64,000 nt of DNA from Globisporangium splendens (Eukaryota; Oomycota; Peronosporomycetes; Pythiales; Pythiaceae): contig VFIW01000056.1 in assembly GCA_006386115.1 (NCBI GenBank), forward strand, positions 186,001-250,000, written 5' to 3'. How positions within the stretch are numbered: the first letter of the stretch is position 1; every line of letters begins with the position of its first letter. Positions 38,559 through 63,958 of the stretch are shown here, one piece after another. The notes beneath the pieces were generated by a model, which was not told where the DNA came from, searched no databases, and was given only the letters and a program-made list of their open reading frames with translations. The translations under genes were made by a program, and so were the position numbers.

Positions 38559-39167
38559 GCGCCAGAGGCGCACCGCAGGTGACTCTCGTAGTCGAAATTA
38601 CTAAAGTAGTGTAGCTATGAGCAAGGGTACTTCTGTTCGGGTAAACGTAACGAAATATACCTCACTTTGTCTGTCTGTCATGCAGTCAGTCAAGTCGCCT
38701 CGGGCTCCGTTGTTCGGCGAATGCCAATGCCATCGTGCCCTAGAGATGCGCTGACCCAGAGCCCGCTAGAACTCTCGTTCTGCTGCTCTCTTCTCTGCTG
38801 TCATGTCTTCTTGCTGTTGTCCAGTCACACGTTGAAGCTGACAAGGGCGCATATCATTGGCCAAAAATACGCACATCAACGATTCGGCCATCACTCTCAA
38901 ATGTATCCATGTTGAAGTGAGTTTGCAGCTGCATGTGCGCTGAATCACAACAGAAAGACGAGACCACAAACAGTTTTGCATTTTTCCATATCGAGCAAGC
39001 CGCTGCGCAAATCTGTAACAAGCTCACTATACTACACTGCTATACTTTTCCTGCGTAGGATAGTAGCAGAGCGATCCGTTCTCCTTATCACGCGAACGTT
39101 TGTGCTCAGAAGACATGCCTAGTTCAGCGAAGGCACGAGGTCTGGGAGCACGACGCCAGCAGCAAGC
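38559..39167. other. Left arm, no gene recognised
   Basis: Between the RNase H relic and the 3' end of gene A1. Nothing recognised. Confidence 0.4.
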
Positions 39168-41133: not shown

Positions 41134-41553
41134 ATGATCAAGACCGCTCTCCTCAGCGTTTTCGCCATCGCCGCCGCGTACTCGACCCCCGCTGTCCACG
41201 CTGAAGAGGAAGCGGGCAAGGCCGACATCGTGCTCGCCGGTTTCCAATTGGCTTCGCAGATCGTCCCGCTCATCGGTGGGCTCTTCAAGAACAATAAGGA
41301 GTGCCAGCAAGTGGCTTGCTGGATCTCGACGCCAAAGTGCTACCTGCAGGCAGCTGACAAGGTCCAGAACGATATCTTCCAGGGACGTGATGGCTACCGC
41401 CTGGAGAGCCACAACAACCAGGGCGCGTGGGCTCGCTACTGGCGCGTCAGGACCGACGTGTCGACGATCAATACGATTGCGTCCGGCAAGTGCGGTGACG
41501 GCTCGAGCTTCACGGTGTCCAACTGCCAGACCACGGGACACGTCCACTGCTAA
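41134..41553 (+). CDS. Small secreted six-cysteine protein B, copy 1
   Basis: 139 residues, paralogue of protein A. The signal peptide MIKTALLSVFAIAAAYSTPA(VHA) has cleavage expected before EEEAG. The mature protein is about 116 residues with cysteines at 57, 62, 69, 120, 131 and 139, the last being the C-terminal residue. The conserved core is shared with A: PLIGGLFKN, C-x4-C-W, KCY-x2-AADxVQ, FQGRDGY, NQGAWxRYWRVRTDV, GKCxDGSSFxVxNCQxTGHV. The open frame extends upstream to 40894, but the signal peptide marks the real start. No RXLR- or crinkler-type motif is seen after the signal peptide. Function unknown; an apoplastic or surface role is inferred from secretion and disulfides only. Confidence 0.8.
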   Translation: MIKTALLSVFAIAAAYSTPAVHAEEEAGKADIVLAGFQLASQIVPLIGGLFKNNKECQQVACWISTPKCYLQAADKVQNDIFQGRDGYRLESHNNQGAWARYWRVRTDVSTINTIASGKCGDGSSFTVSNCQTTGHVHC

Positions 41554-42159
41554 TTGTGCTGGCTTTCCGTGTGTTGCCGGACCTCCCGTGTCGACGCTTA
41601 ACGCGCAAGGTTAAACATACGATGCATGTCTTCTAAGTACAAAATACATTCATCGTCCACAACTTGTGGATGTGTCTTCAGTGTGCCTCTGCATCATTAG
41701 ACTCAGTCAACATTCATGTCTGGCGATGCAACTTGAATGTTGACCCAGGCTCGAAATTAATAATAATAGCTACCATTCAGTGATGCATGTCCAGTTTTTG
41801 ACCCCAGGATCACTATGCGCGCATAGGTTTTGACGAGCAGTCCAAGGTGCCATTGCAAGCGCACGGAAGGAGAGAGATCCCCTGGAAGGCCAACATGAGG
41901 CTAGAGGACGGTCCCTCCTCAGAGCGCCGCAAACTTCGACTCACGGGAATAGCGGTAATGCTGCAGGAGACGCCGCAGCAAAAATGCTGTCCGTTGCCGT
42001 CCGTGACTACGAAAAGATCATGTGTTGCTTGGTTGTTTCGCGTTGCGCGTCAAGTCCGAGCTGTCGTTGAAGGGAGATTGATGCGGCGACGTGATTGGCT
42101 ACAAACACTGGAATAGCGCATTCTAGTTGGTCAAGATCGCATGGTATCTTCCCATTCTG
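41554..42159. other. Left arm, 3' flank of gene B1
   Basis: Non-coding. It holds a 15-nt palindrome (TCCACAAcTTGTGGA, about 41658-41672) and the 11-bp hairpin listed separately, then runs to the spacer edge. Confidence 0.5.
41706..41744 (+). repeat. Hairpin downstream of gene B1
   Basis: Perfect 11-bp inverted repeat GTCAACATTCA...TGAATGTTGAC with a 17-nt loop, about 150 bp after the B1 stop. The same hairpin follows every copy of gene B. It could act in the transcript 3' end, but no function is shown. Confidence 0.7.
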
Positions 42160-44290
42160 TTGCGATGCTTGACTTAATGAAGGCTTACGACACGCTGGAC
42201 AGAGACTTTCTGTACCTTGTGCTGAGCAAGTTCGGCTTTGGGCGACAATTTGTGGATTTAGTACGTCGAATGCACTCGGACACTACGGCGCAGTACCTAG
42301 TGAACAATGAACTGTCGAGAGGATGGGAGGTCAAGTCGGCATTCGTCAAGGCTGCCCCCTCTCCCCTCTGCTGTTTATTGTTGCCGCGGAGATTCTCGCT
42401 CTGGCAGCACAGCAAGACCCCCATCTGGTAGGAATTCGTGTGACCTAATCCGGAGCAGAACCCCATCTTATTTCGACCTTCGCCGACGACTCCGCCGTCT
42501 TTTTGAAACAAGGGGAACAGCTGCCTCGACTGATGCAGCTGCTGTCCGAGTTCGACCAGCAATCAGGTCTGCACGTGCAACCAACGAAAAGCAGCTATAT
42601 CTGTCTCGACACAGCAGCAGACCAGAAACAAAGATGCGGCATTCCAATCCTGAAGCATGGAGAGACGGTGAGGTACCTTGGCATCCAAATAGGAACCGGG
42701 GACATCACGCAAGCTAATTGGGAGGACCGCCTGCAAAAGCTCCGAACCAGATTGATCATCGCGACCAAAGTCTCCAACAGTGTGATGGGGAGAGTGCTTA
42801 TACTGAATTCGGTCTTGCTGCCGTCGATTCTGTTCACTGCCGGCTACATCAAGCTCCAGCGAAAGTTGTGGACCAGCTAGTGAATCTACAAAAGCAATTT
42901 TTGTGGCAATCGACACTCGGCACAGACGGCACTCGGCACAAGGTGTGTCCTTCCCTGCTCTACTTGCCGGTCAAGGAAGGAGGCATAGGTCTCTATTCAA
43001 TACCTCTTGCAATAAAGCGACAAGCGATGCGGCGGACAACTCGGTGGCTACAGCGAGCGCGAGACAAGTACACAGAAGCATGGCATGACCAGGTTCATCA
43101 GGACATAAGTCAAAACTGGGGATGTTGCGCAATTTCACCCAAGGAGCGAAGCCAGCACGCACAGACAAGGCTGTACCAGACGAACAATATCCACAGACTC
43201 GGGTGGGAGTATCGTTGTGAAGACCTGGTGGCTGCAGAGGGACGCAATCTCGCGTGGAAAGTCGATCCGAAGCGGCAGATGGAATCCTTGCTACCGACCC
43301 TGGACCTCGAGTGGAGATCAGACGGACGTGCAGGTGTGTATTTTGGGAGAAACCTGAGCAGACGATTCATCAACTATCAGAAGAGACTCGAGCCTTCTGG
43401 CCATCCTTTCAGTGGAACGATAACCCCTGGATAATCGACAGTCAAGGCGAGCAGTATACAGTCAAAACGGTTCCTTTCCTGAAGGAATGCAATTTGGCCA
43501 GCTTCAACGTGAGACGGGAAGAAGAGCGAGTGTTCTCCGTGCGGCTACCAACCATGACGGCGACTCTCACGTTCAAACGAATGACCGCCCTGAGAAAACT
43601 CGTAACCAGCATCATTCTGTGCTCACTGGAGATAGAAGACGATGCAAGCAATCAGCTAAACAGTCAATAGGAGCCGTGGAGCAGGAAACACACAAAACGA
43701 GAGTACAAGTGGATCAGCAACGGCATGGGAACCATCGTCGCGGTACCAGTGTCGGAGAGGAGCCACACGGACTACATTCAGATGCAACGGCAAGCAAACG
43801 GAGTTCTCTGGACAGTGACCGACTGGGCCGGGGATGCTACTTGTCAACAAGACGTTGCAATGATCGAAGAAGAAATAAAAACCACAGGGTGGACATCCAA
43901 ACCGCACCCGCTCACGACTCACTGTCCGTGGCTGGTGCATGAGCGTACTCCCCCAAACAGCATCCAGAAGACAATTGACCGAGCACGAACACGGAGGCTG
44001 CACAGCAAGTTGTATCAAGGTCTCGGAGGACTTATAGACAAACTTAACGGTAGTTCTATCCTTCCTGGGGACAACGTATTTGGCCGATCTTCTCGCCAAC
44101 ATGTCTGTGAACTCCGAGAATGCGAAGATACTCACCGACGAATCGCGGGGAAGTGATCAAGCTCTTATGTCCCAAGTCGTAGCTCTACTCGACAATGATA
44201 TCGGTGCCACACCGTCAAAAGTTAGAAACACCTCACTCTCAGCAGTGTTAATGAGGCTCAGGAATTCTTCAACTGTATGTAGATCATAAG
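42160..44290 (+). mobile_element. 5'-truncated LINE-type retrotransposon relic (reverse transcriptase) in spacer 1
   Basis: The sequence enters a reverse transcriptase just at the spacer edge: motif A is MLDLMKAYDTLDRDFLYLVL. In a shifted frame come GIRQGCPLSPLLFIVAAEIL (motif B) and then a TAA at about 42446. A third frame gives STFADDSAVFLKQGEQL (motif C, FADD) and the thumb region (KYLGIQIG-like RYLGIQIGTGD, RLIIATKVSNSVMGRVLIL). Downstream frames (WLQRARDKYTEAWHDQ, WNDNPWIIDSQGEQ, WLVHERTPPNSIQ) are the C-terminal part, broken by several frameshifts. The endonuclease and the 5' half of RT are missing. It is dead as read. RNase H sequence is not contiguous with it. Confidence 0.8.
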
Positions 44291-45203
44291 TTAAATAGAA
44301 TTACCTTCTCACTCTCTCTCTCTCTCTGAGCGGCCATGAACCTCAACGTGATTGCGCTTCATGACTACGTAAATGTCAGCGGAAAGGCAGTTTAATTGAC
44401 ACTGTCAGCTCTTGGAGTATCACGACGAAGAGCAGCGATATAAGCAAACACAAGCAGCAAACTGCGGACGCCTCGTGAAGAGAGATCACGTGGGTCTTTG
44501 CGAAATGCGTCCTTGTAAGTGCCAGTCAGAAGATCCATTGACAGCCATTCGAATCTTTGACTCACGATGGCTTGTATTTGTTGTGTTGAGAACACAAGGC
44601 GAATACGTTAATCGAACCGATTTACTGCATAGCACAAGACAAACGTCCGATTTTGCTGATGGGAAGCTGGCCAGTAAAAAACAATCGTCCCCATGTCGGA
44701 AAGTCGTCTTAAATGTTGTTGCTGTGCACTCACCAGACTCGGTCTCAGGGACCTGACTGCACTGTTACAAGAGCAAGTCACGCGCATCAATCGTACACTT
44801 CACGACCTTCGCTATTCCTCGGATGAAGATGACGACCATACTGCCAACGTGACACCACTGTCATAGCGTCAATGCAATAGTGCAAACATAAAGAAGATAC
44901 ATTGCACACTCACACCAGGGGAGAGCAGCAAGAACTGCAGCAGCCGAGCCTCAGTCTCATCGAATTGGAGGCGCACGAGGTCGTCCGAGCATGCACTTCG
45001 GCCATCAGACCAGACTCTGGTCGGGGCGCTGGCGGTATCACAGAGCGAGCTTGGGTGCTCACGTGCGCCGTGATGAGGGGTCTGCTGTTTTGAAGACTGG
45101 ATTGGACAAGACAGACATGGGTCATCAAAGACACTTGGGCAATGAGCACACGTTACTGCTGCTACTACTGCTACTGCTTGGGCAATGAGTGATGATCTGT
45201 TCT
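42160..45203 (+). other. Palindrome 1 spacer (3044 bp), orientation 1
   Basis: Unique centre of palindrome 1. It holds a 5'-truncated LINE (to about 44290), then about 0.9 kb without a recognised gene (a CT repeat at about 44310-44330; a CTG/CTA triplet-rich stretch at about 45155-45180). The same segment is at 57852-60898 in the opposite orientation. Confidence 0.9.
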
Positions 45204-45373
45204 CAGAATGGGAAGATACCATGCGATCTTGACCAACTAGAATGCGCTATTCCAGTGTTTGTAGCCAATCACGTCGCCGCATCAATCTCCCTTCAACGAC
45301 AGCTCGGACTTGACGCGCAACGCGAAACAACCAAGCAACACATGATCTTTTCGTAGTCACGGACGGCAACGGA

Positions 45374-45425
45374 CAGCATTTTTGCTGCGGCGTCTCCTGC
45401 AGCATTTTTGCTGCGGCGTCTCCTG
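45374..45425. repeat. 26-bp tandem duplication specific to the right arm
   Basis: CAGCATTTTTGCTGCGGCGT plus CTCCTG occurs twice in tandem here but once in the left arm and in palindrome 2. It marks this arm as distinct from an exact read artefact of the other. Confidence 0.85.
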
Positions 45426-45644
45426 CAGCATTACCGCTATTCCCGTGAGTCGAAGTTTGCGGCGCTCTGAGGAGGGACCGTCCTCTAGCCTCATGTTGGC
45501 CTTCCAGGGGATCTCTCTCCTTCCGTGCGCTTGCAATGGCACCTTGGACTGCTCGTCAAAACCTATGCGCGCATAGTGATCCTGGGGTCAAAAACTGGAC
45601 ATGCATCACTGAACGGTAGCTATTATTATTAATTTCGAGCCTGG

Positions 45645-45683
45645 GTCAACATTCAAGTTGCATCGCCAGACATGAATGTTGAC
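45645..45683 (-). repeat. Hairpin downstream of gene B2
   Basis: Same 11-bp inverted repeat and 17-nt loop as after B1. Confidence 0.7.
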
Positions 45684-45835
45684 GGAGTCTAATGATGCAG
45701 AGACACACTGAAGACACATCCACAAGTTGTGGATGATGAATGTATTTTGTACTTAGAAGACATGCATCGTATGTTTAACCTTGCGCGTTAAGCGTCGACA
45801 CGGGAGGTCCGGCAACACACGGAAAGCCAGCACAA

Positions 45836-46255
45836 TTAGCAGTGGACGTGTCCCGTGGTCTGGCAGTTGGACACCGTGAAGCTCGAGCCGTCACCGCACT
45901 TGCCGGACGCAATCGTATTGATCGTCGACACGTCGGTCCTGACGCGCCAGTAGCGAGCCCACGCGCCCTGGTTGTTGTGGCTCTCCAGGCGGTAGCCATC
46001 ACGTCCCTGGAAGATATCGTTCTGGACCTTGTCAGCTGCCTGCAGGTAGCACTTTGGCGTCGAGATCCAGCAAGCCACTTGCTGGCACTCCTTATTGTTC
46101 TTGAAGAGCCCACCGATGAGCGGGACGATCTGCGAAGCCAATTGGAAACCGGCGAGCACGATGTCGGCCTTGCCCGCTTCCTCTTCAGCGTGGACAGCGG
46201 GGGTCGAGTACGCGGCGGCGATGGCGAAAACGCTGAGGAGAGCGGTCTTGATCAT
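45836..46255 (-). CDS. Small secreted six-cysteine protein B, copy 2
   Basis: Translation identical to copy 1 (139 residues: signal peptide MIKTALLSVFAIAAAYSTPA, six cysteines, C-terminal Cys). It lies in the right arm in opposite orientation, paired divergently with gene A2. The 3' hairpin and 5' pyrimidine-rich leader are conserved, so it should be expressed if copy 1 is. The absence of any amino-acid change implies very recent duplication or ongoing gene conversion between arms. Confidence 0.8.
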   Translation of the reverse strand: MIKTALLSVFAIAAAYSTPAVHAEEEAGKADIVLAGFQLASQIVPLIGGLFKNNKECQQVACWISTPKCYLQAADKVQNDIFQGRDGYRLESHNNQGAWARYWRVRTDVSTINTIASGKCGDGSSFTVSNCQTTGHVHC

Positions 46256-47742
46256 CGTGGAAGGGAGGGCGTTTGGGGACGAGGTGGGGCTTGGGGACTT
46301 GGGACTTGGAAGTCGAAATGGGAAATGAATGACATATCGAAAGCGTGCCGAGTGTGCACCCTCGTCGAGCTGGAGTAGCGAGTGTCCTCCCATGTGTGAG
46401 CAGGGCGCCTCACGCGCTTGCCCATCCCAATGATAAAGATTGCGTTTGTTTCGTCGGCGCCAGTTCACCCACACACCGTCGTCGAAAGAGTGCACAAATG
46501 TGTGACCTGCACAAGCCTATACGACAGTATGAACGAGAGAGTTGCTTCCTTATCTGGATACCAGCATCCTTCTCAAACTGCGACGATCGATGTACCTCCG
46601 AGTTTTCAGTCGTACCACGTTGTAGTGAACATAAGATTACCAAGCCGCAAAAAGGTGGAATAAACACCGGACGACCAACTCATGTCGTCCTTTCTCTCGT
46701 CATCACTGGTGATCGCGAATGGTGATTTGCATTCAAATTGATACAAACGAGTACTCTCGTTTATGAGCTGGCGGTGCACTGCCGCCGCAGCGCAAACGGA
46801 CGTGGCCGGACCCATTCACTTATTCGCTGTCTTATTGTGTCCTCAATGCTCCGCGTTCTGAGTGGAACGCATAAGAGCTTTACTGAAAACGGCGAGAATC
46901 CTTGTCTCAGGGCAATCGTTGACTGGACTCAGCCGGATGGCTTCGTGCGTCCTAAGTGTCACTCTTTGACACTTCTTCAATACGCCAAGACATCTACAGG
47001 TGATCACGAGTTATCATTCTTTTACTGGTAATCAAGTTGCGCCTCGCCAGCGGACGGAGGAAGATCAATCAGTACAGTCTCGCTTCATCCTCGAGGCTCG
47101 GCAAAAGCAATTCATATGTATCGCAAGTCGTGTCCGAATGCTCAGTACTTTGAGTCATAAGAAGGTGCTGCTCTCCTCACTCTTCGTGTACCATAGGTGA
47201 AGATTGAAATGAAAGCTTGCTGTTCTGATGCAAATCACCGTTTAGGATCATGAACCGAGCACGATGGGTAGCGTTATGTAATAATCCAGTCTGTCCTCCA
47301 TTTTCAGCCACAGTGGTACCATCGGGTATGAGAGGGTGCACGTGACACCTTCTCCGACACTGCTCATCATCAGTGTTGCGCATTTGTACTGCTTTCCAAC
47401 TCTACCACGTTCATATGATGTGATTTGATTTCAAAGGCTATGCCAAGGGAGTGGTGGCTGAAAATGGAGGATCGACTATACAAAGAGTGTCATCATGAAC
47501 TGAGCGCACAGTTCCCAGAAAAGGTGTACTGTCCCCTCCCGTCTCTGTTCCTCGGCACTGTCTACTGGACTAGGAGTGAGCACATCAGTGCCTAAGACCG
47601 AGTGTTCGTACTCCCTCAGTTCGCCAAGAAGACCATCCGCAGTGTCTCGGTCTGTCATTCTCAAACTCGACCTCAGCGTCTCAAGCGCAAACTTCCACTC
47701 TCTCTCTCTCTCTCTCTCTCGCTTCCCAACACCTCGTTCGCA
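46256..47742. promoter_or_regulatory. Divergent intergenic region between B2 and A2
   Basis: Inverted copy of 39645-41133, with a CT dinucleotide repeat (about 47699-47720) next to the A2 start codon. No gene recognised. Confidence 0.5.
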
Positions 47743-48219
47743 ATGATCAAGACCGCGCTTCTGAGTCTCTTCGTCGTCGCCGCCGCGCAATCGAACGCTG
47801 TCGTTCGTGCCGAAGAGGAGTCTGCAATCGGAACTGCTGTCGGCGTCGGAGCGGGAGTCGTCGCTCTGGGTGCAGCAACTGGACCTGGCGAAATCGCCGT
47901 GGCGAGTTTCGAACTAGCTGCGGTCTTGGTTCCTCTTATCGGGGGTCTATTCAAGAACCACAAGCAGTGCCATCAAGTGGCGTGTTGGGTCAGCAACGGC
48001 AAATGCTACCAGAAGGCAGCCGACGAAGTCCAGAGCCAGGTTTTCCAGGGACGCGATGGGTACACAGTCGAAAGCCACGGGAATCAAGGCGCGTGGGTTC
48101 GCTACTGGCGCGTGAGAACCGACGTGACGCAGGTCCAGACGATTGCGAATGGTAAGTGCGCCGACGGCTCGAGCTTCTCGGTGACCAACTGCCAGGTCAC
48201 GGGACACGTCCACTGTTAG
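47743..48219 (+). CDS. Small secreted six-cysteine protein A, copy 2
   Basis: 158 residues. Same as copy 1 apart from one substitution (IANGKCADG here, IASGKCADG in copy 1), which creates no new cysteine. Signal peptide, Gly-rich insert, six cysteines and C-terminal HVHC are all intact. Preceded by the CT microsatellite, whose length differs from the left arm. Confidence 0.78.
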   Translation: MIKTALLSLFVVAAAQSNAVVRAEEESAIGTAVGVGAGVVALGAATGPGEIAVASFELAAVLVPLIGGLFKNHKQCHQVACWVSNGKCYQKAADEVQSQVFQGRDGYTVESHGNQGAWVRYWRVRTDVTQVQTIANGKCADGSSFSVTNCQVTGHVHC

Positions 48220-48828
48220 GCTTGCTGCTGGCGTCGTGCTCCCAGACCTTGTACCTTCGCTGAACTAGGCATGTCTTCTGAGCACAAACGTTCGCGTGAT
48301 AAGGAGAACGGATCGCTCTGCTACTATCCTACGCAGGAAAAGTATAGCAGTGTAGTATAGTGAGCTTATTACAGATTTGCGCAGCGGCTTGCTCGATATG
48401 GAAAAATGCAAAACTGTTTGTGGTCTCGTCTTTCTGTTGTGATTCAGCGCACATGCAGCTGCAAACTCACTTCAACATGGATACATTTGAGAGTGATGGC
48501 CGAATCGTTGATGTGCGTATTTTTGGCCAATGATATGCGCCCTTGTCAGCTTCAACGTGTGACTGGACAACAGCAAGAAGACATGACAGCAGAGAAGAGA
48601 GCAGCAGAACGAGAGTTCTAGCGGGCTCTGGGTCAGCGCATCTCTAGGGCACGATGGCATTGGCATTCGCCGAACAACGGAGCCCGAGGCGACTTGACTG
48701 ACTGCATGACAGACAGACAAAGTGAGGTATATTTCGTTACGTTTACCCGAACAGAAGTACCCTTGCTCATAGCTACACTACTTTAGTAATTTCGACTACG
48801 AGAGTCACCTGCGGTGCGCCTCTGGCGC

Positions 48829-49308
48829 TCAGCCCGAGGTGTGGTGGAGGAAGAATCTCACGTTGCGGGACACGACGGAGGTGCTCAACCAATCGTTGTT
48901 GCTATTCCTTTGATGCTGGATAAACCAGTGGCTTACATCGTTCTCGACGTGCTGTTGGATGGCATGTCCGTCGGCGCATGTGGTTGGAAAGGTGTACTGC
49001 CTCGAAGCCGCGTTGTCCATTGCGTGATTCGCTGCCAGATCGGCCATCTTGTTATAAGCTCGAAGATGATGCGTCCATGTGCGGATGCACATACTATTCG
49101 CCAGTTGCTGTGTCTTTTGGAAAAGCCTCTTGAGCCGCGCGTTCCGCGGCGCCTTGTGATTCCATTGCTGGCGGATGATCATGCTGCTATCTCCTGCTAC
49201 GTGCAGGGGTTCGCAGTTGTGCTCGCGTGCGTATCTGACTGACTGCATGAGACCCCGCCAGTCCCGCGGTACGTACGTGCGAGCTGTCGCATGCATGCCT
49301 GTGTACAC
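48829..49308 (-). pseudogene. Retroelement RNase H domain relic (right arm)
   Basis: Inverted copy of 38079-38558 with an identical translation: GDSSMIIRQQW and NKMADLAANHAMD. The N-terminal part of the RNase H fold is missing, as in the left arm, so the element was already a fragment before the arm was duplicated. Confidence 0.62.
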
Positions 49309-50093
49309 ATGCTCATTGCTGCTGCTTGTCCATCACTCTGCATGCATGCACTTACTCAGACATGCACAGCGCGACTCTGTCGTGCATTCGCGCTCACGCA
49401 CACTTTGCAAGAAAGAGAGTGGTGCCAGGCAGTAGCGCAGCCAAGAAGCCTCGCTCGCTGTTGGTCTCGTCGCGTCCTCTGGGTTCAACTTGTTGATTAG
49501 CAACGACGACAATAAGGACAAAGATGCTGCGAGCAACGAAGACGATGAGTGCGCTGCGAGCGATGAGGAGGAGGAAGAAGATAAAGAATCAGCGGCACGC
49601 GTCCGCTCATGGGTGCCACAGAAGCCCACAAGACTAGCACCGCTGCCATAAATCAGCCAGACGAAAGCGACAACGCTAGTACGATCGAGTCGGAATACTC
49701 GAAGAATGAGTATGAAAAAGAAGACGCGGTGGAGAGGACCATCCGTCGTAGGGTCTCGAGTCGTGTTCGACGCTCTTGACTCACTGCTCAACGTTGCGTG
49801 GAGTGCCCCGACGTCGCATGCGGCATGATGCGGGACTCCACGTCGGTGGTCCTCCCTGCCGTGTTTTCTTCTCTTTGCGGTCGTCACTTTTCTTCTTCGA
49901 TTCCTCCGACTCATTTGCACTGGTGTTGTCGTTGTCGTTGTCGTTGTCGTCTGGGTCTTCTGTGAAGGCAGCGGCAGCGGTGTGCAACAAGTACCAATAA
50001 TAGCGAAATTGCGAGGGCAGGTTTGTCGCGAAGAACATTTCTTTTAGGGAGATTAAAATCCAAACAATTGCGTCTTCGCTTCTCTCTCTTTCT

Positions 50094-50860
50094 CTAGTGT
50101 ACACGCTCTAATACGATGGGGACGACTTCGCAGTTGTCTGGCGTCACTTCCGTGTCTTGAGGACGCATCGCCACCCACATGCCCCAGATGAGCTTGTAGT
50201 GCGCCACAACCGCGACGTGCGTGTCCGGGATCACGTCGAAAAACTGCTCCAAGAACTGCACGGCGCGCACCTGGATCTCGGGGTCGGTCTCCATGTGGTT
50301 CGGGTCCCACAGCACGTCTTCTTCGTCCAGAATTTCCGCACCTTTGAACGCAAAGTCCACCGTCGGGAACTTGGTCTTGAGCTTTGTAAGCGTCGTGCGC
50401 TTGTTCGGCGTGTGCATCCCCAGGCGTTCACGACAGAGCTCCATGCTCACGAACTGAGGCGACACGACTGGGTAGCCTTCGAAAAAGTTCTGCGCTGTCT
50501 GGATCGTGCGCGAGAGCGTGGATACGATGATGCGCTCGATCGTGGGCATGCCATTGGCGCGCTCAGCTGCAAGTGGAGCAGGTCCCTTGCTGCGCGCGTC
50601 GTTGATGCCGATCTCAGTGAGGCCCGTGTCGAGGTACTTCTCGCTTCTCGACTCTTCAGTGTCCCACCACTCGTCGCCGTACGCCTTCTCGATCTCATTG
50701 TGGACGCCCTCGCCGTGGCGAATAAAGTACACGACCTTGATGTCGCACGTCGGCGTCGTGTGGTTCTTTGTCTTGGTGAGTTTGACCTTGATGTCCGCCC
50801 AGATGCCTACCACGAAATGAAAGTTCTTGAAGATGCTGGAGTGGTTGACGTCGAATGTCC
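50094..50860 (-). pseudogene. Histidine phosphatase (mutase-like) 3, 5'-truncated and chimeric
   Basis: From the stop (50094) to 50744 it matches mutase-like gene 2 through the right arm: RHGEGVHNEIEKAYGDE, STLSRTIQTAQNFF and VVAHYKLIWG are intact. Beyond 50744 homology continues only at protein level. SSIFKNFHFVVGIWADIKVK lines up with gene 2's LFKNFRLSMRDWADFEAK, so a different paralogue provides this part. Upstream of about 50860 the gene stops, and LINE-derived sequence follows in the same open frame. The first 30 or so residues, including the MPTIRAL start, are gone. It may be transcribed from the LINE side but lacks its own start and promoter. Confidence 0.75.
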
Positions 50861-50861
50861 G

Positions 50862-51060
50862 TTGCGAAGATCTGGTGGCTGCAGAGGGACGCAACCTCGC
50901 GTGGAAAGTCGATCCGAAGCGGCAGATGGAATCCTTGCTACCGACCCTGGACCTCGAGTGGAGATCAGACGGACGTGCAGGCGTGTATTTTGGGAGAAAC
51001 CTGAGCAAATCATCAACTATCGGAAGAGACTCGCGCCTTCTGGCCATCCTTTCAGTGGAA
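50862..51060 (+). mobile_element. LINE fragment, forward piece
   Basis: About 200 bp matching the reverse-transcriptase C-terminal region at about 43211-43410 in the same orientation (encodes EDLVAAEGRNLAWKVDPKR). It abuts an oppositely oriented piece of the same element. Confidence 0.7.
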
Positions 51061-51597
51061 CGACAAGCTTCTGTGTACTTGCCTCGCGCTCGCTGTAGCC
51101 ACCGAGTTGTCCGCCGCATCGCTTGTCGCTTTATTGCAAGAGGTATTGAATAGAGACCTATGCCTCCTTCCTTGACCGGCAAGTAGAGCAGGGAAGGACA
51201 CACCTTGTGCCGAGTGCCGTCTGTGCCGAGTGTCGATTGCCACAAAAATTGCTTTTGTAGATTCACTAGCTGGTCCACAACTTTCGCTGGAGCTTGATGT
51301 AGCCGGCAGTGAACAGAATCGACGGCAGCAAGACCGAATTCAGTATAAGCACTCTCCCCATCACACTGTTGGAGACTTTGGTCGCGATGATCAATCTGGT
51401 TCGGAGCTTTTGCAGGCGGTCCTCCCAATTAGCTTGCGTGATGTCCCCGGTTCCTATTTGGATGCCAAGGTACCTCACCGTCTCTCCATGCTTCAGGATT
51501 GGAATGCCGCATCTTTGTTTCTGGTCTGCTGCTGTGTCGAGACAGATATAGCTGCTTTTCGTTGGTTGCACGTGCAAACCTCGCATTCCTTGTAGAA
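51061..51597 (-). mobile_element. LINE fragment, reverse piece (reverse transcriptase thumb)
   Basis: Matches about 42560-43080 in reverse orientation (HVQPTKSSYICLDTAADQ, RYLGIQIGTGDITQ, QLVNLQKQFLWQSTLGTDG). Upstream (higher coordinates) it joins sequence from nearer the element's 5' end, so the central RT core has been deleted. Confidence 0.7.
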
Positions 51598-54500
51598 TCC
51601 ATTGTTCAGACTGTCCACGCCTCCTGCCTATTACCGATATAAAGCCGCGATTGCCTCTCGTACTTTTTTTTCAGTGATGGGTACCATCAAGTCTTGGTTT
51701 TGCGCTTCCGTGACTTTTCGAGTTTCCCGAATGTACACCAGTGCATCAAATCGTTGTTCAGCCTTGTGCGGAGGGACCGTAGCATGGCTCTGGCCGGTGA
51801 TTTGGTGCTACTCTGTCCCTGTGATGTCCGCTAGACTCGCGTTTGGAGGGTGGTACCTTCCGGGGGTCGGTTCCAATCTCGAAATTGTTTGATCCCGCTG
51901 CCATTTGGCGATCCTCCGAAAGAAGCGACGAACATCCCCCTGCATTGCTTGCATGTACTTACCGAATTCAAACTCTGCTGCCTCTCTTGCCACGTTTGCT
52001 TGTTCTTCAATCAGCTGACGCCGTGTGTGGTTTCCTGGTCGGTGCTACTGATCCTCCAACTTTTGCCGATATCTTCGTACTTGCCGCTTCTCTGCTCGAC
52101 GTACTCTCAGTATTGCTTTGATGATACGCTGCTCCAGATGGCTCCACTCGATTGATCCCTCGCTCTGCATCAGCTCCAGCTCGTGAGCAATTGCCTTTTG
52201 CACCCCAGTCCGCATTACCTGTTGCTGTCGCGCCTTTAGTACCTTGAGGGCTCGACCGAGTCCACTTCCATGATGACTTGAACCATGATCACCGATAGAA
52301 CTGACCACTCGCTGAGCTCCTCTCCACTCTTGAAGGCTGCTTTGAGTTCTATGGTTTGCTTCAATATAGTGCAGAAGTGTTCAATCGTCTCGTACAGGTT
52401 GTCTGGGTCTACGGTGTCACTGGTCCTGAACGTCTGCAGCTCCTCCTCATACATCAAGGTACAGATGATGTAGCGGCTGAGCTTCTCTTGCTGGGTCGGG
52501 TGACAAAGCCGCAGAACTTCGAGCCCACCGTACTTCATTTTTCCTAGCGTCGACCAGTCTTCCTTGGAGTTGAGTAGTGCCGCCCGTTGTTGCTTCGTGG
52601 TTGCCGTTGCAATCCTGTCAAACCAACCTGTGATCCATACCCTGGTCTTTGCCTGATCGGTGCGGTGTGCAAGACTTTTGAGCCCTTCCTCAATCACCTG
52701 TTCGCGCAGAACCTGCGTCAAGTCCACTAGCGTTGGCCCTCTGAGATGGTCCAGCACATGATGCGGCCCTGGTGACGTCTTCAACATCGCTAGGATTCGC
52801 TCCCACTCATTGAGAGCTGCCTGCGTCTATACATCATGATTGGACGAGAGCAGAGGAAAGGGGAATTTGGTTCCTTGTTTCCATTGCTCATGCAGCGTGC
52901 GCTCGAGGTCTCTGCATTTCTGCATGGAGTCTCCTTCGATCGCCAAACGCCTCGAGAGCGTTTTGGTTTTCTTGAGGGGGACATTGGGGCTGTTCAGGTT
53001 TATCGTGACGTCACCATCTTTCGCTGTGAGCATCAGGGTTTCGCCTCTATCTCGCTTCCTGGGCTGTGGAGCAACTCGGTTGCGGGCAAGTGATATTCCA
53101 CAAGCTGATTCTCCTCTGATACGAACGACTAGCCGTGTTGTCCGCTGAGCTGGTTTGGCTCAAATTTCTCTCGTCCGTCCACGGTGGAGTCCACTCTGAC
53201 CCTTCCAAATTGCCGCTCGTATCCACACTTGTTTGAGAAATTTGCTCGAATTGATGTTCCAGCTTCCATTGTTCGAGCGTCCCTCTGGATATTTGGTATT
53301 GGTTGATCCACCTCGAGATTTCGCTGGTGTTTGACATATCCACACGTCTCAGTCTTTCTTGTTAATGTTCGTTGAGTTAGTCTTATCCTGTGCTTGTAAA
53401 GGCAATTCGTTCATGCATACGTGTGAGTCCGTGAATCAGTATATCATGTAGCTGCTCTTTTTCTCCATGAGAGATCGCTGATTTGCCAAGCGCTGCTCAT
53501 ATTCCGTACCGGTCACATTTCCAATTGTAGTTGAGCCATGGTCGGTTTGGGTCGGTGATGGGAGGGGTTGATTGTTGAGTGTTTAGTTGGGAAATGTCGC
53601 TGTCCTCCATTGGGTCCTCTGTGACGGGTTCGGAATCGAATTGGCCAGATCGGTCGGTCTTGAACTCCGTCTTGCTCCACTCGGATCCTTGGATATACTT
53701 CGCTAATGAGGAGCTCGTCATATTCGGCAGTGGCGATGGGTCGTTAAGGGTTCTGAAATGCCGACTGTTGTAGTGTTCATTTGCGAATTTCATCACAATC
53801 GGTAGCGGACTGCTCGTGGCCTCTGCTTCGCTTCTGTCTTGGCGAAGCCCGTCTTCCCATTGTTTCCCCGTGCACGCATGTTCTTCGGCTGACAAAAACT
53901 GGCCTCCTGCGTGGACTTTGGGTTATGGGTTGTAAATTGCATAGCCTTTTCGGTCCCCGTAAATTGTCTCGATCAGCACGAAGATTTTCCTCTGCAGAGC
54001 TTTGGCAGTCATCCGCAATGACTCCGATCCACCCCACAGGGACCCTGGCAGAGTGGAATATCGCTGGAGGAGTTGCTTGCGATATCATTGAAATAGTTGA
54101 GAACATCTGCTTTCCTTTCTTTTGGGCTCATTTTTCGATCCCCTCTCCCCAGTGCTTCGAGTATTCCCAAATGCGTTCCTTCAGGGAATTCGAGGTCGAA
54201 GTTGAGACGTGCGGCCGCGTTCGTGCTTTGCTTGATTCTGCTCGCCGCTGCCTCGAGCAACTTCTCATTGGTCCTGTCGTCATGCGTGATTTGGAGTATC
54301 GCTTCCGTCACTGCATAAAATGGCAATTTCCGGTAGGTGCTGTAGTTGTTTTAGCATGGCCGTTGACGTCCATCACATCTTGAAGCGTGTACACCTCATC
54401 CCAGTCCATGATGTCGTTGCAATTCGGGTTGAACTCGGCTAGTCTTTCCACGTGCACCTTCATTAGCTCGTCCATATCTCGTCGAAAGCGCATTAGTTCT

Positions 54501-55694
54501 TTTGCCCACCGGATATTATCCTTGGAAATTTGGCTTGGTCCATTTTTTTGGCTTGCCTTTGGTGCGGGTCCTTTTGTATTCGCTGTTCCGCCGTTTGGTT
54601 TCACATTCGCACGCTCTTTCAGTTGACTGGTTTGAAGCACTGGAGTTCCTGTTCCCACTGTAGACAATGCATTTTTTGTTGGATTTCTGATTGGAGTTGG
54701 GTTGTGGGCTAAACGTGTTGGTCTCGTCAGGCGTCACGGGGTTCGTGTTCTCGCTCAGCATGTTTTCCCCACTGGCGTGAGGATCCTCTGCCGCGGGTTA
54801 AAGTGGCTGTTTCTGTTTGTCGATGCTGTCCAAGATAGCTTCTTTCATTTCCGCTGCACTGGTGAAATGGCTGGCTTTCTCGGAAGTTTACTCACGATCT
54901 CGTCATTTGTGTGGATACAGTTGTTAGTTGTTAGCTCCTGTTCCGTTGCCTTGCATGCTCGCGCGAAATGTCCTGCTTCCACACAGATCAAGCAGGGTGC
55001 CATTCGGTGCTTGGATGCGTGGTGGAGTATGACCGTTCACCCTCGCCAAATAGTTCGGTTAACATCGATAAGCGCTTTTGGACATGATTCCTTTTCAAAG
55101 TGAGTCTTCCATAGCTGCGAATGGTTGGATCTTGGACCGCACGCATCGAGCGTGTAGGCGTAGGATCGCTTGCCTGTCGTCTGCTTAAAGTATTCTAAAA
55201 ACACGGCCATATTCATTGAGCGAGCAGTGTTCAAAAGCTGAATTTTGTACCTGGATCTCGACTCTGCGTTCTGTAGCCCTTCCGCTCCTAATTGACTGTT
55301 CCACACGTTGTCTGCCTCCGGTCGCTCTCTGGTTGTCTCCGTCGGGTGCGCGGATATGAGGTGTATCAATTGGCATCTGAAGGAGATCGACGCTTTGTCC
55401 CATTTCGTCGCTGTGCACCTGTCAAAGAAAATGAAGTGGAGAGAGAGAGTGAGTGCTGTCATTATATTCCGCAACTTTGAGGTCTTTCAGCATCGCCATA
55501 GCTTCTTCCATTTTACCGTCTTTGCGGTATCTCGCTGCTTGCAAGATTACCTCCGCGATTCGTCCGGTTGACAGATGATCTGTGTAGACTTGCGTCGAAT
55601 CCGATAATTTGCCGACCAACTCTCCTTCCACTGAGCTGCGATGGTGATCTGGATGCGGAAGAGAGTGTCCCTATCACACGCTCGCCGTAGGAAT
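51598..55694 (-). mobile_element. LINE 5' portion: zinc-knuckle ORF and pre-RT region, decayed
   Basis: On the minus strand, from about 55.6 kb downwards, there are short broken frames of gag-like (ORF1) and pre-RT sequence. A CCHC zinc knuckle is encoded at 54953-54994 (PCLICVEAGHFARACKATEQ, spacing C-x2-C-x4-H-x4-C). It is preceded by a region with SYAYTLDACGPRSNHSQLWK and followed by Pro/Asn/Lys-rich sequence (54308-54667). Further on, frames such as WFDRIATATTKQQRAALLNS (52236-52787) and FFRRIAKWQRDQTISRLEPT (51808-51993) look like the linker preceding reverse transcriptase. Stops and shifts interrupt every frame. I did not find a convincing endonuclease domain. It supplies the element part that is missing in the spacer copies. 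Confidence 0.62.
54953..54994 (-). other. CCHC zinc-knuckle coding motif
   Basis: Cys-Leu-Ile-Cys-x4-His-x4-Cys on the minus strand, the spacing typical of nucleic-acid-binding knuckles of retroelement ORF1/gag proteins. It anchors the direction and identity of this region. Confidence 0.75.
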
Positions 55695-56825
55695 CAAATG
55701 CGCAACACTGATGATGAGCAGTGTCGGAGAAGGTGTCACGTGCACCCTCTCATACCCGATGGTACCACTGTGGCTGAAAATGGAGGACAGACTGGATTAT
55801 TACATAACGCTACCCATCGTGCTCGGTTCATGATCCTAAACGGTGATTTGCATCAGAACAGCAAGCTTTCATTTCAATCTTCACCTATGGTACACGAAGA
55901 GTGAGGAGAGCAGCACCTTCTTATGACTCAAAGTACTGAGCATTCGGACACGACTTGCGATACATATGAATTGCTTTTGCCGAGCCTCGAGGATGAAGCG
56001 AGACTGTACTGATTGATCTTCCTCCGTCCGCTGGCGAGGCGCAACTTGATTACCAGTAAAAGAATGATAACTCGTGATCACCTGTAGATGTCTTGGCGTA
56101 TTGAAGAAGTGTCAAAGAGGGACACTTAGGACGCACGAAGCCATCCGGCTGAGTCCAGTCAACGATTGCCCTGAGACAAGGATTCTCGCCGTTTTCAGTA
56201 AAGCTCTTATGCGTTCCACTCAGAACGCGGAGCATTGAGGACACAATAAGACAGCGAATAAGTGAATGGGTCCGGCCACGTCCGTTTGCGCTGCGGCGGC
56301 AGTGCACCGCCAGCTCATAAACGAGAGTACTCGTTTGTATCAATTTGAATGCAAATCACCATTCGCGATCACCAGTGATGACGAGAGAAAGGACGACATG
56401 AGTTGGTCGTCCGGTGTTTATTCCACCTTTTTGCGGCTTGGTAATCTTATGTTCACTACAACGTGGTACGACTGAAAACTCGGAGGTACATCGATCGTCG
56501 CAGTTTGAGAAGGATGCTGGTATCCAGATAAGGAAGCAACTCTCTCGTTCATACTGTCGTATAGGCTTGTGCAGGTCACACATTTGTGCACTCTTTCGAC
56601 GACGGTGTGTGGGTGAACTGGCGCCGACGAAACAAACGCAATCTTTATCATTGGGATGGGCAAGCGCGTGAGGCGCCCTGCTCACACATGGGAGGACACT
56701 CGCTACTCCAGCTCGACGAGGGTGCACACTCGGCACGCTTTCGATATGTCATTCATTTCCCATTTCGACTTCCAAGTCCCAAGTCCCCAAGCCCCACCTC
56801 GTCCCCAAACGCCCTCCCTTCCACG

Positions 56826-57245
56826 ATGATCAAGACCGCTCTCCTCAGCGTTTTCGCCATCGCCGCCGCGTACTCGACCCCCGCTGTCCACGCTGAAGAG
56901 GAAGCGGGCAAGGCCGACATCGTGCTCGCCGGTTTCCAATTGGCTTCGCAGATCGTCCCGCTCATCGGTGGGCTCTTCAAGAACAATAAGGAGTGCCAGC
57001 AAGTGGCTTGCTGGATCTCGACGCCAAAGTGCTACCTGCAGGCAGCTGACAAGGTCCAGAACGATATCTTCCAGGGACGTGATGGCTACCGCCTGGAGAG
57101 CCACAACAACCAGGGCGCGTGGGCTCGCTACTGGCGCGTCAGGACCGACGTGTCGACGATCAATACGATTGCGTCCGGCAAGTGCGGTGACGGCTCGAGC
57201 TTCACGGTGTCCAACTGCCAGACCACGGGACACGTCCACTGCTAA
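56826..57245 (+). CDS. Small secreted six-cysteine protein B, copy 3
   Basis: 139 residues, translation identical to copies 1 and 2. It retains only part of the divergent upstream region (from 55695), so its partner gene A is missing on this side. The leader, signal peptide, six cysteines and 3' hairpin are all conserved, so the gene should be intact. Confidence 0.8.
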   Translation: MIKTALLSVFAIAAAYSTPAVHAEEEAGKADIVLAGFQLASQIVPLIGGLFKNNKECQQVACWISTPKCYLQAADKVQNDIFQGRDGYRLESHNNQGAWARYWRVRTDVSTINTIASGKCGDGSSFTVSNCQTTGHVHC

Positions 57246-57397
57246 TTGTGCTGGCTTTCCGTGTGTTGCCGGACCTCCCGTGTCGACGCTTAACGCGCAA
57301 GGTTAAACATACGATGCATGTCTTCTAAGTACAAAATACATTCATCGTCCACAACTTGTGGATGTGTCTTCAGTGTGCCTCTGCATCATTAGACTCA

Positions 57398-57436
57398 GTC
57401 AACATTCATGTCTGGCGATGCAACTTGAATGTTGAC
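57398..57436 (+). repeat. Hairpin downstream of gene B3
   Basis: Same 11-bp inverted repeat with 17-nt loop as after B1. Confidence 0.7.
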
Positions 57437-57851
57437 CCAGGCTCGAAATTAATAATAATAGCTACCATTCAGTGATGCATGTCCAGTTTTTGACCCCAGG
57501 ATCACTATGCGCGCATAGGTTTTGACGAGCAGTCCAAGGTGCCATTGCAAGCGCACGGAAGGAGAGAGATCCCCTGGAAGGCCAACATGAGGCTAGAGGA
57601 CGGTCCCTCCTCAGAGCGCCGCAAACTTCGACTCACGGGAATAGCGGTAATGCTGCAGGAGACGCCGCAGCAAAAATGCTGTCCGTTGCCGTCCGTGACT
57701 ACGAAAAGATCATGTGTTGCTTGGTTGTTTCGCGTTGCGCGTCAAGTCCGAGCTGTCGTTGAAGGGAGATTGATGCGGCGACGTGATTGGCTACAAACAC
57801 TGGAATAGCGCATTCTAGTTGGTCAAGATCGCATGGTATCTTCCCATTCTG

Positions 57852-60800
57852 AGAACAGATCATCACTCATTGCCCAAGCAGTAGCAGTAGTAGCAGCAGT
57901 AACGTGTGCTCATTGCCCAAGTGTCTTTGATGACCCATGTCTGTCTTGTCCAATCCAGTCTTCAAAACAGCAGACCCCTCATCACGGCGCACGTGAGCAC
58001 CCAAGCTCGCTCTGTGATACCGCCAGCGCCCCGACCAGAGTCTGGTCTGATGGCCGAAGTGCATGCTCGGACGACCTCGTGCGCCTCCAATTCGATGAGA
58101 CTGAGGCTCGGCTGCTGCAGTTCTTGCTGCTCTCCCCTGGTGTGAGTGTGCAATGTATCTTCTTTATGTTTGCACTATTGCATTGACGCTATGACAGTGG
58201 TGTCACGTTGGCAGTATGGTCGTCATCTTCATCCGAGGAATAGCGAAGGTCGTGAAGTGTACGATTGATGCGCGTGACTTGCTCTTGTAACAGTGCAGTC
58301 AGGTCCCTGAGACCGAGTCTGGTGAGTGCACAGCAACAACATTTAAGACGACTTTCCGACATGGGGACGATTGTTTTTTACTGGCCAGCTTCCCATCAGC
58401 AAAATCGGACGTTTGTCTTGTGCTATGCAGTAAATCGGTTCGATTAACGTATTCGCCTTGTGTTCTCAACACAACAAATACAAGCCATCGTGAGTCAAAG
58501 ATTCGAATGGCTGTCAATGGATCTTCTGACTGGCACTTACAAGGACGCATTTCGCAAAGACCCACGTGATCTCTCTTCACGAGGCGTCCGCAGTTTGCTG
58601 CTTGTGTTTGCTTATATCGCTGCTCTTCGTCGTGATACTCCAAGAGCTGACAGTGTCAATTAAACTGCCTTTCCGCTGACATTTACGTAGTCATGAAGCG
58701 CAATCACGTTGAGGTTCATGGCCGCTCAGAGAGAGAGAGAGAGAGTGAGAAGGTAATTCTATTTAACTTATGATCTACATACAGTTGAAGAATTCCTGAG
58801 CCTCATTAACACTGCTGAGAGTGAGGTGTTTCTAACTTTTGACGGTGTGGCACCGATATCATTGTCGAGTAGAGCTACGACTTGGGACATAAGAGCTTGA
58901 TCACTTCCCCGCGATTCGTCGGTGAGTATCTTCGCATTCTCGGAGTTCACAGACATGTTGGCGAGAAGATCGGCCAAATACGTTGTCCCCAGGAAGGATA
59001 GAACTACCGTTAAGTTTGTCTATAAGTCCTCCGAGACCTTGATACAACTTGCTGTGCAGCCTCCGTGTTCGTGCTCGGTCAATTGTCTTCTGGATGCTGT
59101 TTGGGGGAGTACGCTCATGCACCAGCCACGGACAGTGAGTCGTGAGCGGGTGCGGTTTGGATGTCCACCCTGTGGTTTTTATTTCTTCTTCGATCATTGC
59201 AACGTCTTGTTGACAAGTAGCATCCCCGGCCCAGTCGGTCACTGTCCAGAGAACTCCGTTTGCTTGCCGTTGCATCTGAATGTAGTCCGTGTGGCTCCTC
59301 TCCGACACTGGTACCGCGACGATGGTTCCCATGCCGTTGCTGATCCACTTGTACTCTCGTTTTGTGTGTTTCCTGCTCCACGGCTCCTATTGACTGTTTA
59401 GCTGATTGCTTGCATCGTCTTCTATCTCCAGTGAGCACAGAATGATGCTGGTTACGAGTTTTCTCAGGGCGGTCATTCGTTTGAACGTGAGAGTCGCCGT
59501 CATGGTTGGTAGCCGCACGGAGAACACTCGCTCTTCTTCCCGTCTCACGTTGAAGCTGGCCAAATTGCATTCCTTCAGGAAAGAAACCGTTTTGACCGTG
59601 TACTGCTCGCCTTAGCTGTCGATTATCCAAGGGTTGTCGTTCCACTGAAAGGATGGCCAGAACGCTCGAGTCTCTTCCGATAGCTGATGTATCGTCTGCT
59701 CAGGTTTTCTCCCAAAATATACGCCTACCCGTCCGTCTGATCTCCACTCGAGGTCCACGGTCGGTAGCAAGGATTCCATTTGCCACTTCAGATCATCTTT
59801 CCACGCGGGATTGCGTCCCTCTGCAGCCACCAGGTCTTCACCGAGGTACTCCCACCCGAGTCTGTGGATATTGTTCGTCTGGTACAGCCTTGTCTGTGCG
59901 TGCTGGCTTCGCTCCTTGGGCGAGATCGTGCAGCATCCCCAGCTTTGACTTTTGTCCTGATGAACCTGTTCACGCCAAGCTTCTGTATACTTGTCTCGCG
60001 CTCGCTGTAGCCACCGAGTTGTCCGCTGCATCGCTTGTCGCTTTATTGCAAGAGGTATTGAATAGAGACCTATGCCTCCTTCCTTGACCAGCAGGTATAG
60101 CAGGGAAGGACTCACCTTGTGCCTCGTGCCGTCTGTGCCGAGTGTCGATTGCCACAAAAATTGCTTTTGTAGATTCACTAGCTGGTCCACAACTTTCGCT
60201 GGAGCTTGATGTAGCCGGCAGTGAACAGAATCGACGGCAGCAAGACCGAATTCAGTATAAGCACTCTCCCCATCACACTGTTGGAGACTTTGGTCGCGAT
60301 GATCAATCTGGTTCGGAGCTTTTGCAGGCGGTCCTCCCAATTAGCTTGCGTGATGTCCCCGGTTCCTATTTGGATGCCAAGGTACCTCACCGTCTCTCCA
60401 TGCTTCAGGATTGGAATGCCGCATCTTTGTTTCTGGTCTGCTGCTGTGTCGAGACAGATATAGCTGCTTTTCGTTGGTTGCACGTGCAGACCTGATTGCT
60501 GGTCGAACTCGGACAGCAGCTGCATCAGTCGAGGCAGCTGTTCCCCTTGTTTCAAAAAGACGGCGGAGTCGTCGGCGAAGGTCGAAATAAGATGGGGTTC
60601 TGCTCCGGATTAGGTCACACGAATTCCTACCAGATGGGGGTCTTGCTGTGCTGCCAGAGCGAGAATCTCCGCGGCAACAATAAACAGCAGAGGGGAGAGG
60701 GGGCAGCCTTGACGAATGCCGACTTGACCTCCCATCCTCTCGACAGTTCATTGTTCACTAGGTACTGCGCCGTAGTGTCCGAGTGCATTCGACGTACTAA

Positions 60801-60898
60801 ATCCACAAATTGTCGCCCAAAGCCGAACTTGCTCAGCACAAGGTACAGAAAGTCTCTGTCCAGCGTGTCGTAAGCCTTCATTAAGTCAAGCATCGCAA
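57852..60898 (-). other. Palindrome 2 spacer (3047 bp), inverted relative to spacer 1
   Basis: Begins with the reverse complement of 45203 downwards and ends with the reverse complement of 42160. Both junctions fall exactly at the inner ends of the arms (CCCATTCTG). Contents as in spacer 1: about 0.9 kb without a recognised gene (57852-58766), then the LINE relic. Confidence 0.92.
58767..60898 (-). mobile_element. 5'-truncated LINE relic in spacer 2
   Basis: Inverted copy of the element at 42160-44290, with the same RT motifs (LMKAYDTLDRDF; FADDSAVFL in a separate frame) and the same main frameshifts. In the stretch matching about 43.0-43.4 kb it carries its own differences (LAWKVDPKRQ of spacer 1 is PAWKDDLKWQ here). 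It also keeps an in-frame join FGRKPEQTIHQLSEETRAFW where spacer 1 shifts frame. It is therefore the less damaged copy in this part. Confidence 0.8.
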
Positions 60899-61306
60899 CA
60901 GAATGGGAAGATACCATGCAATCTTGACCAACTAGAATGCGTTATTCCAGTGTTTGTAGCCAATCACGTCGCCGCATCAATCTCCCTTCAAGGACAGCTC
61001 GGACTTGACGCGCAACGCGAAACAAGCAAGCAGCACATGATCTCTTCACAGTCGAGTACGGCAACGGACGGCATTTTGCTGCGGCGTCTCCTGCAGCATT
61101 ACCGCTATTCCCGTGAGTCAAAGTTTGCGGCGCTCTGAGGAGGGACCGTCGTCTGGCCTCGTGTTGGCCTTCCAGGGGCTCCCTCTCCTTCCGTGCGCTT
61201 ACAATGGCACCTTGGACCGCTCATCAAAACCTATGCGCACATAGTGATCCTGGGGTCAAAAACTGGACATGCATCACTGAACGGTAGCTATTATTATTGA
61301 GCCTGG

Positions 61307-61345
61307 GTCAACATTCAAGTTGCATCGCCAGACATGAATGTTGAC
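61307..61345 (-). repeat. Hairpin downstream of gene B4
   Basis: Same 11-bp inverted repeat as after B1. The stem is unchanged although the surrounding bases differ, which hints at constraint. Confidence 0.65.
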
Positions 61346-61497
61346 TGAATCTAATGATGCAGACACACACTGAAGGCACATCCACAAGTTGTGGACGATG
61401 GATGTATTTTGTACTTAGAAGACATGCATCGTATATTTAACCTTGCGCGTTAAGCGTCGACACGGGAGGTCCAGCGACACACGGAAAGCCAGCACAA

Positions 61498-61917
61498 TTA
61501 GCAGTGGACGTGTCCCGTGGTCTGGCAGTTGGACACCGTGAAGCTCGAGCCGTCACCGCACTTGCCGGACGCAATCGTATTGATCGTCGACACGTCGGTC
61601 CTGACGCGCCAGTAGCGAGCCCACGCGCCCTGGTTGTTGTGGCTCTCCAGGCGGTAGCCATCACGTCCCTGGAAGATATCGTTCTGGACCTTGTCAGCTG
61701 CCTGCAGGTAGCACTTTGGCGTCGAGATCCAGCAAGCCACTTGCTGGCACTCCTTATTGTTCTTGAAGAGCCTACCGATGAGCGGGACGATCTGCGAAGC
61801 CAATTGGAAACCGGCGAGCACGATGTCGGCCTTGCCCGCTTCCTCTTCAGCGTGGACAGCGGGGGTCGAGTACGCGGCGGCGATGGCGAAAACGCTGAGG
61901 AGAGCGGTCTTGATCAT
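61498..61917 (-). CDS. Small secreted six-cysteine protein B, copy 4
   Basis: 139 residues, one substitution relative to copies 1-3: Gly to Arg in the hydrophobic PLIGGLF segment (PLIGRLF). All cysteines and the signal peptide are intact. Its upstream region is interrupted by the 536-bp insertion at 62062-62597, about 145 bp before the start codon, which may change its promoter. Confidence 0.78.
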   Translation of the reverse strand: MIKTALLSVFAIAAAYSTPAVHAEEEAGKADIVLAGFQLASQIVPLIGRLFKNNKECQQVACWISTPKCYLQAADKVQNDIFQGRDGYRLESHNNQGAWARYWRVRTDVSTINTIASGKCGDGSSFTVSNCQTTGHVHC

Positions 61918-62043
61918 CGTGGAAGGGAGGGCGTTTGGGGACGAGGTGGGGCTTGGGGACTTGGGACTTGGAAGTCGAAATGGGAAATGAATGACATATC
62001 GAAAGCGTGCCGAGTGTGCACCCTCGTCGAGCTGGAGTAGCGA

Positions 62044-63936: not shown

Positions 63937-63958
63937 GCTTCCCAACACCTCGTTCGCA

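Follow-up and report, generated by a model that had tools for sequence, protein, structure and literature searches.

A family of small secreted-protein genes is probably held in this stretch of the Globisporangium splendens genome as nested palindromes, whose arms recombine with one another and whose spacer lies in either orientation as a by-product. The window, meaning the whole 64,000-nucleotide stretch analysed, is G000:C150:186001-250000 in a 53.3-Mb assembly of 195 contigs from this plant-pathogenic water mould (oomycete), and its G+C content is 54.7% by base counts, against 52.6% for the published genome (PMC7163027), a gap that may be local. Along contig C150, the order is L1 (+), spacer 1, R1 (-), LINE1/LINE2, L2 (+), reversed spacer 2, R2 (-), a third copy (+), its tail and the right flank. 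The structure and the homogenisation of arms within haplotypes are established here; how recombination turned the spacer, and that it still does so, is inferred. The features are as follows.

36556..42159, + strand: L1, left arm of unit 1, with a histidine-phosphatase-like gene, g1 and g2; ends CCCATTCTG
39168..39644, - strand: g1, intact open reading frame for a small secreted, cysteine-containing protein of 158 aa
41134..41553, + strand: g2, intact open reading frame of 139 aa, a g1 paralogue
42160..44328, + strand: LINE part of spacer 1, a 5'-truncated non-LTR retrotransposon with a ~1-kb internal deletion, recognised from genome copies
44329..45203, - strand: tail of spacer 1, 875 bp, the natural continuation of the arm as seen in the LINE-free third copy
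45204..50831, - strand: R1, right arm of unit 1, an inverted match to L1 carrying g2 (45836-46255, -) and g1 (47743-48219, +)
50863..51066, + strand: LINE1 remnant, its 5' junction common to the allelic contig C112
51064..55694, - strand: LINE2, an antisense LINE that has lost internal segments and adjoins L2 at its 5' end, by sequence comparison
55695..57851, + strand: L2, left arm of unit 2, with a g2 copy (56826-57245)
57852..60898, - strand: spacer 2, the reverse of spacer 1, running from tail to antisense LINE, by self-comparison
60899..64000, continuing to 64445 beyond the window, - strand: R2, right arm of unit 2, with a g2 copy (61498-61917)
63959..64435, + strand: third gene copy, g1-type with a g2-type 3' end; an arm end and tail then follow beyond the window

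L1 matches 45204-50831 in inverted orientation at 98.9%, and from 36643 inward the two arms differ by 10 substitutions and a 26-bp indel in ~5.5 kb. Unit 1 is thus a palindrome in the sense of kilobase inverted arms more than 99% alike around a non-duplicated spacer, though that spacer recurs reversed in unit 2. The third arm-plus-tail copy extends from 64122 to ~65930, past the window's end. Across 141.7 kb of C150, inverted matches of at least 150 bp are confined to 36-68 kb in window numbering. At the outer end of R1, the last 100 bp differ from L1. R2 contains a 536-bp insertion (62062-62597) with a flanking repeat of ~18 bp, and C112 has related DNA, 79-90% identical, in its spacer, as does C8 (90%) at 239618-240122. 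Histidine-phosphatase-like copies, tandem and inverted, lie at 35065-37293, 50104-50831 and, beyond the window, 66302-67039, interleaved with the secreted-protein genes; a Pfam scan of 13 selected window frames found PF00300 in 36250-37293. Elsewhere in the window, 16443-21482 holds four diverged tandem copies (72-82%), the one scanned being a short-chain dehydrogenase.

The cysteines of the g1 and g2 proteins are conserved, and the genes are intact in all seven copies of the C150 stretch and all five of the C112 stretch. Because the gene at 63959-64435 resembles g1 but ends 3' like g2, and g2-type sequence comes after it, it is chimaeric. Besides the window's own protein, g2 has 12 homologues, seven of them named G. 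splendens. Outside the window, the closest relative is from G. ultimum, 85% identical, and carries the UniRef name RxLR effector protein. We do not adopt that name for the family, because no RxLR motif was seen by eye in the window's printed family proteins.

The spacers are alike in detail. As the first-pass annotation held, 42160-45203 is 57852-60898 reversed: the two (3044 and 3047 bp) differ by 44 substitutions and 3 gap columns and are otherwise identical, and at this kilobase scale chance is no issue. All 44 substitutions fall inside 42931-43559; in 200-bp bins, they occupy the four bins of 42760-43559 and no other, and 42560-42930 is identical at 371 of 371 positions. This patch looks like an acquisition from another LINE, as, within the extent of LINE2, spacer 1 agrees with it at 151 of 153 positions and spacer 2 at 144 of 153. 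Outside the patch and the gap columns the spacers are alike, yet the arms of the two haplotypes described below are ~3.5% apart, which indicates that the spacer was copied much later.

The spacer itself is a decayed LINE fragment plus tail in which we recognised no intact gene. Its LINE is of high copy number: of 147 candidates for its first 1001 bases, 40 matches were scored, two of them the window's own spacers. Twelve other genome copies are 93-95% identical over the first 1.6-1.9 kb and 89-95% over the final 0.14-0.25 kb; their alignments start at 42160 (42165 in one), and the DNA upstream of the LINE is not arm sequence in any of the 10 copies inspected. Among parent copies, L024 has Exo_endo_phos and RVT_1 and L023 has RVT_1 and RVT_3, which are domains of the endonuclease, reverse transcriptase and RNase H types. 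These domains and a variable 5' truncation, which begins at 42160 here versus the equivalent of 43213 in C112, mark the element as a LINE. The 1-kb deletion is spanned in three of 40 places scored (495 candidates), namely spacer 1, spacer 2 and the C112 LINE1, so that the deleted form is probably a single local lineage. LINE ends coincide with four arm boundaries (L1/R2 inner, L2 outer, cC outer and C8 right outer).

The annotation had placed the spacer breakpoints exactly at the arm-end motif, which proves correct on the LINE side and not on the tail side. All five C150 arm ends inspected (L1, R1, L2, R2 and the third copy) read CTTCCCATTCTG. Of the tail, 866 bp are identical across three copies, the third at 65066, where CCCATTCTG followed by AGAACAG recurs with no LINE between. 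Since this LINE-free copy contains CCCATTCTG joined to tail, that join is old continuous sequence, and the junction of CCCATTCTG with the LINE is the only one created by rearrangement. There, arm and LINE have zero bases in common. CCCATTCTG was also considered as a recombination site or transposon end, and was ruled out by the LINE-free copy and by the C112 arms, which stop 17-19 bp before it.

The clearest view of arm recombination comes from the allelic contig C112, which is collinear with C150 outside the locus (98% at 4593-7406, 97.6% from 65755 on and 96% at C150:280001). Its arms, cA (+), cB (-) and cC (+), follow the same order as in C150; an LTR-like spacer separates cA from cB and recurs, in the same orientation, after cC (144332-151072 versus 157510-164248, 99.3%). 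Within this spacer (G000:C112:146438-151537), 467-bp repeats are both direct and inverted, a layout resembling an LTR element plus an incomplete inverted copy of it. The unit-1 arms are ~99.5-99.8% alike within each haplotype and ~3.5% different between haplotypes. Over 4617 gap-free columns of unit-1 arm, with 618 gap columns dropped and the 536-bp insertion of R2 omitted from this and the arm-variant alignments, L1 and R1 agree with each other and differ from an agreeing cA and cB at 163 sites. The pattern that would pair L1 with cA against R1 with cB occurs at no site, nor does the crossed pattern. Differences confined to a single sequence number 6 in L1, 4 in R1, 4 in cA and 7 in cB. Given this ratio of 163 to 0, each arm is closer to its partner than to the allelic arm, and the arms therefore homogenise within each haplotype, a pattern that arm-to-arm conversion would be expected to produce. 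The earlier proposal that the arms recombine with each other is borne out by these sites, the within-haplotype likeness and the two spacer orientations.

Further comparisons extend this picture. A ~540-bp insertion near 38.15-38.68 kb, with a short flanking repeat, is in both C150 unit-1 arms and neither C112 unit-1 arm. L1 and L2 are equal at 2021 of 2021 columns, and cA and cC at 2016 of 2016, although such exact identity (0/2021 and 0/2016 differing) could have been aided by consensus collapse. The junction between the outer end of R1 and LINE1 is at an identical base in the two haplotypes, so the inverted copy probably predates the haplotype split. The outer boundary of unit 2 differs (40003 in C150 versus 40120 in C112), so that the haplotypes may not have inherited unit 2 from a common source. 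In L1 numbering, R2 matches C150 at 41101, 41146 and 41191 but has the alleles of C112 between 41575 and 42138; its four differences from cC are at 41101, 41146, 41191 and 41278, and from 41279 to 42140 there are none. This tract is what conversion from the allele would leave, though a chimaeric assembly would give the same.

Opposite spacers alone do not show flipping, because an arm-spacer-arm block copied backwards looks identical. The arm variants bear on the history of the spacer, and there the annotation's readings were sound. The left arms do share their variants: 40003-42159 of L1 and 55695-57851 of L2 are identical at 2157 of 2157 positions. The 26-bp duplication is absent from L2 and present in R1, which has it in common with the third copy. 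The Pro/His difference near 40.4 kb is real (Pro in L1 and L2, His in R1), although it sits in a putative short frame whose status as a gene is unsupported. Over the inner 2157 bp, R1 differs from L1 and L2 by 5 substitutions and the 26-bp duplication, which lies 203 bp from the spacer, and L2 is L1-type at all six. Among the listed columns variable in sequences other than the third copy, and judged against C112, R2 and that third copy, only R1 has changed at 40428, 41655 and 41705, and L1 and L2 together appear changed at 41686 and 41775.

What the annotation took for the simplest history, direct duplication of the unit followed by inversion of the spacer through crossover between arms, is not clearly so; if flipping continued, orientation would be mixed among nuclei or isolates. 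A crossover inverts the inner arm ends along with the spacer, so the tail-side arm end of a flipped unit should keep R1-type variants. With L2 L1-type at six of six differences, a plain flip would need a crossover within the last 203 bp (203/2157, 9% of L2) or a later conversion. Nearly identical arms do make good substrates for crossover, L1 equals L2, the C112 units are direct copies with like-oriented spacers, and the principle is seen in the yeast flip/flop region in the excerpted parts of PMC9731477. Against this stands the human Y palindrome P6, in which, according to excerpts of PMC3723533, inversions are much rarer than conversions (3 versus 56 in 83 phased chromosomes). We regard this history, with flipping still going on, as unlikely, and continued flipping in itself as plausible. 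Somewhat easier to entertain, if still doubtful, is a whole inverted copy, in which unit 2 arose by fold-back or template-switch duplication, its spacer never flipped within the unit and L1 later converted L2. Template-switch rearrangements give copies of alternating orientation, and the copies here do alternate (+ - + - +). The reverse-complement match of 40990-47386 to 62061-55695 (6400 columns, 98.2%) is moreover unbroken at the spacer edges. The arm variants, which the annotation had named as the test of this history, speak against it: L2 was predicted to resemble R1, fails to do so at six of six differences and can be reconciled only through an extra, later conversion. Also against it, the two C112 spacers share one orientation. 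Both simple histories are thus contradicted by the arm variants unless one allows for gene conversion or for a crossover within those final 203 bp. The variants do not decide between them, because each needs one more exchange or else a subsequent change in R1, for which the third copy is a possible conversion donor.

Two other explanations bear on whether the inversion is real and whether it is programmed. The assembly could have laid out one real unit, or two haplotypes, twice, with spacer orientation set by chance. If it is the published draft, it is a MaSuRCA hybrid with 0.7 million PacBio reads averaging ~14.6 kb (10.2 Gb; PMC7163027); R2 mixes haplotypes, with its tract 41279-42140 identical to cC, and small indels in cB look unpolished. 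Nevertheless, unit 2 has junctions of its own (LINE2 with L2, the 536-bp insertion and the chimaeric gene ending at 64435), the same architecture occurs on two further contigs, and 11 of 12 control loci (10 kb each around LINE copies; few and non-random) are without an inverted repeat of at least 150 bp, the remaining one having a repeat of 92% over 982 columns. An artefact of this kind is improbable, although a single draft hybrid assembly could contain some errors in the consensus of its repeats and in the direction of its spacers. A phase-variation switch, with a dedicated recombinase acting at CCCATTCTG, is scarcely credible. The 9-bp motif does occur at all five C150 arm ends inspected, but short fixed sites do not bound the segment on both sides: its tail edge is ancestral, as ordinary sequence in the LINE-free copy, the C112 arms end elsewhere, and no gene role is seen for the spacer.

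These readings overlap with the one we prefer, and their probabilities do not sum to one. In the preferred reading, homologous recombination between near-identical long arms, by gene conversion with occasional crossover or break-induced copying, would homogenise the arms of one chromosome, arm to arm and unit to unit, and a spacer that travels with the exchange could end up in either orientation, because any arm can pair with any other. The opposite spacers are then most likely the trace of one arm-anchored event, either inter-unit copying or inversion, with no programmed switch. A more active role, in which invertible palindromes at several loci house the secreted-protein family, exchange and spacer inversion both homogenise and shuffle it, and orientation is polymorphic among nuclei, is rather improbable; this draws on the chimaeric gene ending at 64435 and the allele-derived tract.

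The family forms near-perfect palindromes at two loci besides this one. C8 holds nine intact members in strictly alternating orientation, with palindrome arms of 5031 bp that have one mismatch, around 1483 bp. C27 holds four members, with arms of at least 4052 bp and 8 mismatches around 1744 bp. The LINE in the C8 spacer is flanked by a 12-bp repeat with one mismatch and looks like an ordinary insertion, and the sole genome match of the C27 spacer is itself; LINE insertion is therefore unsupported as a general cause of the palindromes. Family matches also occur at C140, C4, C33, C71, C138 and C161; the palindrome analysis concerned C150, C112, C8 and C27. Eleven of these matches lie at G000:C140:754798-812541 on either strand, and some of them score equally when read in opposite directions.

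The locus is best read as gene-bearing palindromes in concerted evolution, like the yeast flip/flop region and the human Y palindromes. As described in parts of PMC9731477, the Saccharomyces flip/flop on chromosome XIV likewise has gene-family inverted repeats at its ends homogenised within the genome and an intervening segment in two orientations. There, a single locus with a 24-kb segment of 15 genes occurs in two orientations among strains, whereas here two paralogous units share one contig and a transposon remnant lies between the arms. Flip/flop is defined by such polymorphism of one and the same segment, and the likeness of the present locus is in how it works. Excerpts of PMC3723533 describe near-identical arms, arm-to-arm conversion and rare inversions in human P6 as well, but its arms are far longer and its chromosome region is haploid, unlike the locus here, which is assembled as two haplotypes and apparently exchanges sequence with its allele. 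In the portions of PMC1803023 that treat them, long near-perfect inverted gene pairs in Caenorhabditis also show symmetry that outlives sequence, in that case among species rather than between two haplotypes of one assembly. No such locus appears in the titles or abstract openings of the few papers retrieved on oomycete palindromes with gene conversion and on Phytophthora inverted repeats, gene conversion and effectors, and a word search of PMC11139960 gave nothing on palindromes or gene conversion.

In draft assemblies, loci of this type call for read-level checks of both gene sequence and copy number. With a shared palindrome and different spacers in two assembled haplotypes, arm-to-arm homogenisation is directly visible in an oomycete, in a family that includes a G. 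ultimum member labelled as an effector in UniRef. If spacer orientation is polymorphic, the locus would offer a natural test of conversion versus crossover rates in a protist.
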